A DNA stretch of 64,000 bases from Sulfuricurvum sp. (GTDB lineage: Bacteria > Campylobacterota > Campylobacteria > Campylobacterales > Sulfurimonadaceae), in the NCBI RefSeq assembly GCF_030691015.1, contig NZ_JAUYFF010000001.1, positions 620,001-684,000 of the forward strand, in the 5' to 3' direction. Of this stretch, positions 36,858-38,980 are shown piece by piece (positions within the stretch are counted from its first letter, which is position 1; every line of letters begins with the position of its first letter). The translations under genes were made by a program, and so were the position numbers. Below the pieces are notes generated by a model, which did not search any database, was not told the origin of the DNA, and saw only the letters and a program-made list of their open reading frames with translations.

Positions 36858-38366
36858 TCATCTTTTCCGATAGCTCAAAGCCTCAAGGAGATGAGCTTTC
36901 CCTATCTCTTTTTTCCCTTCTACATCGGCAATCGTTCGAGCTACTTTGAGGACGCGGCTTACCGCTCGAAACGATAACCCGAATCTCCCTATAGCTTGAT
37001 CAATTACCGGCTGTGTTTCATCGTTCAAGGGACAGTATCGGGCAATCTCCGCATCACTCAACGCTCCGTTGAGCCGTTCTTGTCCGCGCTCTTTTTGACG
37101 TAAGAAAGCCTCTCGTACTTTTTTATGAAGCTGATGGGAACTGATGCTCGGTTTATCTTCTGCACTTACCGCATGCATTTGAACGTAGAGATCGATACGG
37201 TCTAAAAAGGGATCGGAGAGACGAGATTTATAGCGATTTATTTCTAAATCACTGCATCGGCACGCCGTTGTCGTGCTGAAAAGATTTCCGCATGGGCATG
37301 GGTTCATCGCCGCAACAAACAAGAAATTGGCATCATAGGTTACTTTGGTATTAACGCGTGAGATACGGATATGGCGATCCTCAAGCGGCTCTCGGAGTGC
37401 TTCGAGTACCGTTTTAGAAAAATGGGGCAGTTCATCAAAAAATAAGATCCCCCCATGCGCCAATCCTACTTCACCGATTTGGGCTTTATGACTTCCCCCT
37501 CCGAAGATACTTGCCCCCGTACTGGAGTGATGAGGGGAACGAAACGGGCGTAACGGAGAAAAGGTCGGCTCTTTCCCCTCGAGTATCTCCAGCTTGGCAC
37601 ATTCCAGCATCTCTTGATTGTGCAGTGGCGGCATAATATGGACCAGTCGCTTAGCAATCATCGATTTACCCGAACCGGGGGAGCCTTCCAAGAGTAAGTT
37701 ATGCATTCCAGCCGCCGCAATCAAAGCGGAACGTTTAGCGTGCTCTTGTCCTTTGATATCGACAAAATCAAGGGGGTAGTGTTCATGGAAGTAGTAGTTT
37801 GTCCCCTCATGAATCAAATGGTTAAAATCAAAGGTGCTGATGTGAGACTCCGTCTCCGGGAGGACTTCGGCACGTAAGAGATTGAGAGCCTCCGTTAGAG
37901 TCTCTACACCGTAAAAGGTTATATTGGGAATTTTAGAGAGTTTTGAAAGGCTTACACGTGGAACAATGGCTCGCTCAATCATCCCTTGATTCGCCAAGGA
38001 GAGGATGATAGGGTAGAGGAGGGTATTTTCGGTGACACTTCCATCGAGCCCAAGCTCTCCGAATACGTACCATGAAGTGAGATCACCTTCAAAATTTCCC
38101 AATGCAATAAGTGCGGCGATGGGGAGATCAAAATGGGAGCCCTCTTTGCGTAAATCGCTGGGGGCAAGATTGATAGTAAGCCGTTTCGGGGGAAAGGTAA
38201 ATCCGTTACTCAAGAGGGCAGATTTTACCCGCTCTTTTGACTCAGTTATGGCGGTATTGGCCATTCCGACGATAGTAAAAGCAGGTAGGCCTTTGGTCGC
38301 GGTGAATTGGACTTCGACCGCTGCAGCGTCAATCCCCTCAAAAGTAGCACAAAGTAACTGTTTCAT
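36858..38366 (-). CDS. comM: ComM/YifB AAA+ ATPase (Mg-chelatase-like)
   Basis: Protein of 502 aa. An N-terminal Lon-protease-like domain (FTIVGMANTAI, NLAPSDLRKEGSHFDLPIA) precedes an AAA+ domain with Walker A GSPGSGKSMIAKRL, and FVAAMNPCPCGN, which matches the Cys-rich loop of the family. ComM is a DNA helicase for branch migration during natural transformation. It follows def on the same strand, with a palindromic promoter in between. Confidence 0.93.
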   Translation of the reverse strand: MKQLLCATFEGIDAAAVEVQFTATKGLPAFTIVGMANTAITESKERVKSALLSNGFTFPPKRLTINLAPSDLRKEGSHFDLPIAALIALGNFEGDLTSWYVFGELGLDGSVTENTLLYPIILSLANQGMIERAIVPRVSLSKLSKIPNITFYGVETLTEALNLLRAEVLPETESHISTFDFNHLIHEGTNYYFHEHYPLDFVDIKGQEHAKRSALIAAAGMHNLLLEGSPGSGKSMIAKRLVHIMPPLHNQEMLECAKLEILEGKEPTFSPLRPFRSPHHSSTGASIFGGGSHKAQIGEVGLAHGGILFFDELPHFSKTVLEALREPLEDRHIRISRVNTKVTYDANFLFVAAMNPCPCGNLFSTTTACRCSDLEINRYKSRLSDPFLDRIDLYVQMHAVSAEDKPSISSHQLHKKVREAFLRQKERGQERLNGALSDAEIARYCPLNDETQPVIDQAIGRFGLSFRAVSRVLKVARTIADVEGKKEIGKAHLLEALSYRKR

Positions 38367-38423
38367 GGTGTAATCCAGAATATTATTTAACAGTTATGGT
38401 ATCTTAAATGTTGCATAATGGAA

Positions 38424-38448
38424 ATAATATTGCAAAATGCAATATTAT
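38424..38448. promoter_or_regulatory. Perfect palindrome overlapping the comM -10 element
   Basis: ATAATATTGCA-AAA-TGCAATATTAT has 11-bp perfect arms. On the minus strand TATAAT (38444-38449) overlaps the right arm about 80 nt ahead of the comM ATG, so the site could be an operator over the promoter. It is also 9 nt past the def stop, so an AT-rich terminator for def is an alternative; no strong U-run follows. Confidence 0.55.
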
Positions 38449-38457
38449 AAGTGAGGG

Positions 38458-38973
38458 TTATTTTTTCTCTTTGAGTGTTTTTTTGTACTCTTTTTCAAAT
38501 TTTTTACGACGATTGTAGGTGAGTTTCTCTATAAAGAGTTTCCCTTCCAAATGATCGATTTCGTGCTGGATAGCGATAGCAAGTAGCTCACTGGCCTGAA
38601 GCATACACACGTCTCCATGACGGTTTTGGTACTGTAGGGTGAGTGTTTCATAGCGTTCGACATCCTCATAAAAGCCGGGGACGCTAAGGCACCCTTCCTG
38701 ATAGAGGACATTACCTTGAGGTGCATGAATCACTGGATTCATGATCTCTAAGGTGCTCTCTTTACTTTGATTTCCTTCCTCATCGGGAATACAAAGAATA
38801 AGGGCACGGATAGGATTCGCAACTTGAATAGCGGCTAAACCGATTCCATTGGAACTTATCATCGTTTCATACATATCGTCTAAAAAGCGATGGAGTAATT
38901 CATCAAAATTGACCACCTCTTTAGAACGCATTTTAAGTTGTTTATTGGGGTAGGTGATAATGGGTAGAAGCAT
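38458..38973 (-). CDS. def: Peptide deformylase
   Basis: Protein of 171 aa from the ATG with AAGG 6 nt upstream. All three motifs are present: [17 protein letters not shown] with the metal Cys, and [12 protein letters not shown] with the metal histidines. It removes the formyl group from nascent proteins, next to the ribosome-associated trigger factor and ClpP genes. It starts 8 nt after the GGDEF-like gene. Confidence 0.94.
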
Positions 38974-38980
38974 AAGAACC

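Follow-up and report, generated by a model that had tools for sequence, protein, structure and literature searches.

One question raised by the region between def and comM in a Sulfuricurvum genome is why a long perfect palindrome should stand directly in front of comM, which encodes a YifB family Mg chelatase-like AAA ATPase (TIGR00368). ComM is a helicase for recombination of taken-up DNA and helps natural transformation. The window, that is, the whole stretch of 64,000 nucleotides that was analysed, holds this palindrome in a 91-bp gap between comM (36858-38366, minus strand, with its ATG at 38366) and its upstream neighbour def, the gene for peptide deformylase (38458-38976, minus strand, with its stop codon at 38458-38460). 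Sequence comparisons make it very probable that the palindrome is bound by a self-cleaving repressor of LexA-like type, which would also occupy sites at recA and at its own gene. The idea of a repressor-binding operator, put forward in the original prediction, holds in this form: the palindrome appears to belong to the comM promoter as an operator-type element, and the best candidate for its binder is the repressor described below.

The palindrome occupies positions 38424-38448, starts 9 nt past the def stop codon, and consists of two perfect 11-bp arms around a 3-bp centre, ATAATATTGCA-AAA-TGCAATATTAT (25 bp in all); the arms and the AAA spacer had been described correctly, with the end set one base too far at 38449. 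Within it lies a 19-bp core, ATATTGCA-N3-TGCAATAT (38427-38445), the putative site of an S24/CI-type repressor, and the tail past this core reads TATTTCCA. Among perfect inverted repeats whose arms reach 11 bp or more around a spacer of 3-8 nt, it is the only one in the 64-kb window. At least one comparable repeat was present in 3 of 20 order-1 Markov sequences of window length, so the size of the palindrome is by itself only mildly unusual, and the argument rests instead on conservation and recurrence.

The 19-bp core is one form of a degenerate operator pattern, ATATKDCA-N3-TGHMATAT. A search of the genome for the 25-mer, which had been proposed as a way of finding further competence genes, did return one other place with up to three mismatches, but that place precedes recA. 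When the core is written in IUPAC code (ATATKDCANNNTGHMATAT), there are four exact places in the genome, one before comM, two before recA, and one before the gene for the repressor, and none for the same pattern read backwards. The exact-site regulon of this genome is thus made up of three promoters only, and a dispersed repeat is ruled out, as there are four exact copies and every one of them stands before a gene. Allowing up to two mismatches gave 33 places versus 14 for a control, which indicates that many of the weak sites in this genome are due to chance. Exact places were found in 38 of 41 genomes of the genus (1-7 each) and in 18 of 20 from the family's other genera (1 to 21 each), and the reversed pattern is absent from all 41 and all 20 of these, respectively; the individual exact places that were examined in the genus are among the matches listed. 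Several exact sites of the relatives are intragenic or precede genes whose role is unrelated or unassigned, and for these no SOS function is claimed. Operators occur together with no repressor match in two genomes that are 91% and 81% complete (G005 and G008), and three genomes (G003, G061, and G072) have the repressor and no exact operator.

At comM the genomes of the genus keep ATATTGCAnnnTGCAATAT or a variant of it behind def, while the 3-bp centre varies freely and the flanks diverge; the operator core is likewise kept before comM in three genomes of other genera. The comparison covers 34 rows from the genus and family (def was found in 34 of 36 loci, two of which, L013 and L057, are from the same genome). 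In these rows the offset of the operator from def, counted from the first base of the stop codon, ranges from 2 to 79 nt, yet 27 of the 34 have a TANNAT hexamer 25 or 26 bp past the operator. The arms contain at least one non-pair in 9 of the 34 rows, even with G-T allowed, and the conserved feature is therefore not a hairpin. In the window the hexamer at this fixed distance is TACCAT (38396-38401, minus strand), 25 bp past the operator core, and the conserved comM -10 element is TACCAT- or TACAAT-like. This displaces the minus-strand TATAAT that had been read as the -10 about 80 nt before comM; it is present at 38444-38449, overlapping the palindrome, 78 nt from the ATG, but it is not the element that is held at a fixed spacing. 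With a 17-bp spacer the -35 would be expected at 38419-38424 (minus strand), where a weak TTTCCA abuts the operator core. Among the other genera of the family, a clear comM site was seen in 3 of 16 evaluated genomes (G057, G073, and G074), each with ATATGAC-type half-sites 58-59 bp before the start and directly behind def; two more genomes score 14, and the remainder do not exceed 13. As far as these sites can tell, comM is targeted in the genus but in only a minority of the genera outside it.

The site before the repressor gene is more widespread. The repressor gene itself, a 219-aa ORF at G000:C15:88508-89164, has an exact operator 62 bp before it, and in 60 of 79 repressor loci a site scoring 15-16 out of 16 lies no more than 150 bp ahead of the start, the distance being exactly 62 bp in 18 of these 60; the 79 are the loci with enough upstream sequence among 80 named ones. 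The same score was reached in 0 of 79 upstream sequences when these were reversed and in 2 of 1580 shuffled ones. A site of at least 14 was also found at 21 of 24 further repressor loci (two from the genus, the rest from other genera or families) and at 2 of another 5. No ATAT-type operator was found upstream of the repressor loci of four families (f2, f4, f16, and f18). By eye, loci of f16 and f18 (L371, L373, L248, and L250) show TTAACA-N3-TGTTAA-like stretches upstream with the same CA-N3-TG core, and these are perhaps a drifted form of the operator.

Before recA the genome has two 19-bp sites, 43 and 71 bp from the start codon, and two sites were present at all 24 evaluated recA loci, the second being weak (12 of 15) in four; of 30 loci, six were left out because their start pattern was unmatched. 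In the set of 30 loci used for operator distances, 29 were evaluated (L142 has the wrong ORF), and the distances are off in L127, L136, L137, and L145. A recA site of at least 14 within 130 bp occurs in 11 of 20 genomes with the repressor versus 1 of 15 without it (Fisher 0.004), and outside the family in 6 of 13 versus 1 of 15 (0.029), values that overstate independence because the genomes are related. The cut-off in this comparison was set by the authors, with one weak match (G088) counted as having the repressor and two others (G034 and G037) as lacking it. One genome (G085) has a recA site and no repressor match. The geometry seen at comM recurs in all three of these unrelated promoters: a TANNAT -10 follows 25-26 bp after the operator in 22 of 26 sequences upstream of comM, in 41 of 42 upstream of recA (for the upstream one of the two sites), and in 54 of 85 upstream of the repressor gene; these are counts of distinct upstream strings with a site of at least 15, some of which are possibly from the same species. 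If the spacer is taken as 17 bp, the -35 would directly adjoin the operator in each case.

The protein encoded behind the repressor-gene operator has a C-terminal S24 peptidase domain (PF00717, Peptidase_S24; E 1.1e-17, 64.2 bits, cut-off 23.3) and an N-terminal HTH that matches PF07022 (Phage_CI_repr) at E 8e-4 and 20.1 bits, just under the cut-off of 22; residues 1-70 are helical in the structural model, with a pLDDT of 89-96. The AlphaFold model (mean pLDDT 85.4, pTM 0.57) combines this helical N-terminal domain with a strand-rich C-terminal domain, and a Foldseek search of the PDB ranks a lambda-186 hybrid repressor, Thermotoga maritima LexA, the 186 repressor, and LexA on a RecA filament highest. 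The model thus resembles CI and LexA, although the full-length fit is loose (TM about 0.45 by query) and it is the well-fitting C-terminal domain that carries most of it. All 31 orthologues compared, with identities down to 40%, keep Ala97-Gly98, Ser139, and Lys176 unchanged, and by analogy these would be the cleavage and active-site residues, as an Ala-Gly bond and a Ser-Lys dyad are the features named for self-cleavage of S24 repressors (PMC8565304). Orthologues or relatives of the repressor at E of 1e-10 or better are found in 77 of 100 related genomes and in 37 of 41 in the genus, and the four genus genomes with no match are 57-91% complete.

The protein does not match the LexA DNA-binding domain (PF01726) at E 0.1, and it scores only 22.2 bits against TIGR00498 (cut-off 110.95). 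PF01726 was likewise not found in the rest of this genome or in 59 of 60 relatives, the single match being in G036; it matched 10 of 14 control genomes, four of them archaea, and the model is not fully specific since some of the matching controls are archaeal. With its S24 peptidase domain, presumed cleavage residues, HTH, and operators before its own gene and recA, the protein has what would be expected of an S24-family SOS repressor, and by the domain searches it departs from canonical LexA in its DNA-binding domain, there being no winged-HTH of the PF01726 type.

Several other explanations of the palindrome have to be weighed. We give next to no chance to the view that it is a functionless product of AT-rich DNA, for which the random sequences of window length speak; different species, along with three genomes from other genera, share its position and sequence, and the reversed control is empty in 61 genomes. 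It had also been considered that the palindrome might be an AT-rich intrinsic terminator of def that happens by chance to lie before the comM promoter. The short distance to the def stop codon would suit such a role, as would the 11-bp RNA hairpin into which the palindrome would fold (z = -2.77 for the 97-nt region) and the T-rich tails seen in some relatives. Yet no intrinsic terminator was called at the palindrome by a test for a G+C-rich stem followed by a T run, mispaired arms are found in the rows counted above, the spacing to def is not conserved whereas that to the -10 is, and recA and the repressor gene, whose neighbours are different, have the same motif in front of them. These observations rule the def terminator out as an explanation of the conserved element, and we regard it as very improbable.

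Two further explanations accept the operator family and differ in the role or the identity of the binder. The S24 protein might act as an activator, or, like lambda CI, as both activator and repressor. Proteins of the CI type can activate from beside the -35, and such a role would fit the single spacing of 25-26 bp that three promoters show between operator and -10, suggesting that RNA polymerase is contacted in a defined way. On the other hand, the second recA operator overlaps the predicted -10, the usual layout for repression, and an activator of the self-cleaving type would shut recA off upon damage; activation is in our view unlikely. It might also be that some other regulator binds the operators and simply counts the S24 gene among its targets, as the presence of operators with no repressor match in G005, G008, and G085 would allow. 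We consider this distinctly unlikely, for the repressor gene is the most widely conserved target seen, which autoregulation would lead one to expect, a damage sensor of the S24 type would suit the repair targets, and recA sites accompany the presence of the repressor.

It is thus highly likely that an S24-type repressor acts on comM, recA, and its own gene as a RecA-triggered SOS-type circuit without LexA. In the simplest model, RecA filaments would induce the repressor to cleave itself and so relieve the repression. An S24-family LexA-like protein, composed of a CI-type HTH and a self-cleaving S24 domain, would hold down the comM promoter via the palindrome and would at the same time occupy the two recA operators and the one before its own gene. 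Upon DNA damage RecA would be loaded on single-stranded DNA, and the resulting filament would stimulate the repressor to cut itself at Ala97-Gly98 by means of the Ser139/Lys176 dyad. The cleaved repressor would then leave its operators, and RecA, ComM, and the repressor would rise together until the damage is repaired, with ComM among the outputs of an SOS-type circuit that operates without LexA. Control of competence, as first proposed, captures a part of this in that comM does carry the operator. It was nevertheless too narrow, and a competence-only operator is rejected because recA and the repressor gene share the same element, as do repair genes in the relatives.

The regulon seen in sister genera is larger. 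Five genomes of the family (G065, G067, G071, G073, and G075) have exact sites before recA, and exact operators also stand upstream of ruvB (L415), radC (L416), a pol IV-type Y-family polymerase gene (L426), recG (L433, L437, and L450), radA/sms (L436 and L438), and gyrB (L434), as well as of recD2 (L429), where the gene runs off the end of the locus and falls below the family cut-off, and of an NAD kinase-like gene, nadK (L435), whose family match is just under the cut-off. Seven of the 8 exact sites in G065 precede repair-type targets or the repressor; in G067 this is true of 6 of 21 for clear repair genes or the repressor, and the rest are intragenic or precede genes with an unrelated or unassigned role. 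The predicted target list is that of an SOS response; ruvB, recG, the polymerase, and others were seen as targets only in other genera and not in the genome studied here. In two Sulfuricurvum genomes recQ has a site with two mismatches (L087 and L103). When 15 of the weak sites in our genome were checked for spacing, three had a TANNAT 25 or 26 bp further on: one before rmuC (L212), one before an ORF6N-domain gene (L235), and one inside a gene (L236). The rmuC site (G000:C4:138586-138604) scores 14 and is followed by TATAAT at 25 bp; rmuC is a probable weak member of this genome's regulon because it has an exact site in G005 (L203), with TATAAT 26 bp on. For dprA (Pfam DNA_processg_A) a site scoring 14 lies at G000:C4:105716-105734 (L211), 12 bp before the longest ORF; there is no TANNAT at 25-26 bp, and the gene is only a lead as a possible regulon member.

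The likeness to the canonical LexA/SOS system, such as that of E. coli, lies in the S24 self-cleaving type of repressor, the palindromic operators, and the sites before the repressor's own gene, recA, and repair genes, and by analogy the system would work like LexA/SOS even though its repressor lacks the LexA type of DNA-binding domain. It differs from the canonical system in the operator (CTGT-N8-ACAG for E. coli LexA), in having comM as a target, and in the small number of exact sites in Sulfuricurvum. The nearest described analogues appear to be the CI-type S24 regulators of Bacteroidetes, HdiR, and FddR. The Bacteroidetes proteins are described as non-canonical SOS regulators of a LexA-less group, with an S24 C-terminal and a CI-type N-terminal domain and a regulon of repair genes that in several species includes recG, recQ, and radC, and the type is called exclusive to that phylum (PMC8565304). 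By this description they share with the present system the two domains, the lack of LexA, and a repair regulon; one of the two motifs given for that clade, CTAA-N5-TTAG (PMC8565304), differs from the operator found here. The same source lists HdiR of Streptococcaceae and UmuDAb of Moraxellaceae as S24 proteins standing in for LexA, with minimal regulons of mainly error-prone polymerases, and reports for Streptococcus thermophilus that cinA-recA is under the control of HdiR, which also interferes with natural transformation (PMC8565304). Unlike these regulons as there described, the present one would include recA and comM and, in sister genera, many recombination genes. FddR is reported as a phage-type S24 repressor in the basic DNA-damage response of Francisella, another LexA-less genus, and is reportedly absent outside of it (PMC13148647).

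Within the same phylum, Helicobacter pylori and Campylobacter jejuni are described as being without lexA, and in H. pylori DNA damage and RecA are reported to raise natural competence functions in the absence of LexA, with recA slightly repressed (PMC2912397). This is a physiological parallel for a link between damage and competence, although that description, as far as it goes, names no repressor or operator, whereas recA here carries operators (PMC2912397). No report of a LexA-like SOS regulator of Campylobacterota was found among the titles and abstracts listed by searches of open-licence PMC papers.

If the circuit is as proposed, the Campylobacterales have, or had, an inducible SOS-type response, with a LexA substitute conserved in environmental relatives; an operator and a first list of targets would be at hand for such a response in relatives of Helicobacter and Campylobacter, and comM would link DNA damage to natural transformation. 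The finding bears on how the Campylobacterales sense and answer DNA damage and makes that question testable. We lean towards a wider scenario in which a CI-type-S24 SOS response was ancestral to the order, with the operator position fixed just upstream of the -35, perhaps touching RNA polymerase; some genera would have a large repair regulon, other families would have lost or re-wired the system (towards TTAACA-N3-TGTTAA-like sites), and the inclusion of comM would make recombination of taken-up DNA a direct output of damage.

A small gene of about 86 codons is present in 8 of the 41 genomes of the genus and absent from the genome studied here. In seven of these (G001, G009, G011, G012, G017, G018, and G052) it lies between def and comM, and the operator (score 14-16) precedes it; in the eighth (G016) no such operator was found near it. 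The protein (L451-L455, L457, and L458) has no Pfam match and, by eye, one hydrophobic stretch, and is a candidate damage-induced membrane effector. In two other genomes comM itself seems to be interrupted. G048 has def and the operator followed by another ORF on one contig, and elsewhere an apparent comM fragment, recognized by eye, beside an integrase-type gene (its Phage_integrase match falls short of the cut-off), 31 bp upstream of which stands an exact operator, as if an integrated element had entered the gene (L215, G048:C10:1-2800; L216, G048:C12:19500-22500). In G066 the comM matches fall into two pieces about 17 kb apart (G066:C1:207038-207892 and 225087-225746; L408 and L410), which look as if an island had been inserted into the gene.

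Operator-like sites were also noted beside genes of other kinds. In the genome studied here, sites scoring 14 stand upstream of a Bro-N gene (G000:C15:41140-41158; L234) and of the ORF6N gene mentioned above (G000:C17:339476-339494). Exact operators in relatives precede genes of the adenine methylase or restriction-modification type (L425, L439, L441, L443, and L214, the last with an HSDR_N match just below its cut-off), and toxin-antitoxin-like modules, recognized by eye, have operator-like sites such as ATATTGCATTTTGAAATGT upstream (L079, L083, L086, L088, L095, L101, and L110). On one contig (G011:C11) an ORF with DncV/cGAS-like nucleotidyltransferase domains of the CBASS type has an exact operator (L109:1499-1517) 109 bp ahead of it, and an anti-phage system may thus be tied to the damage response.
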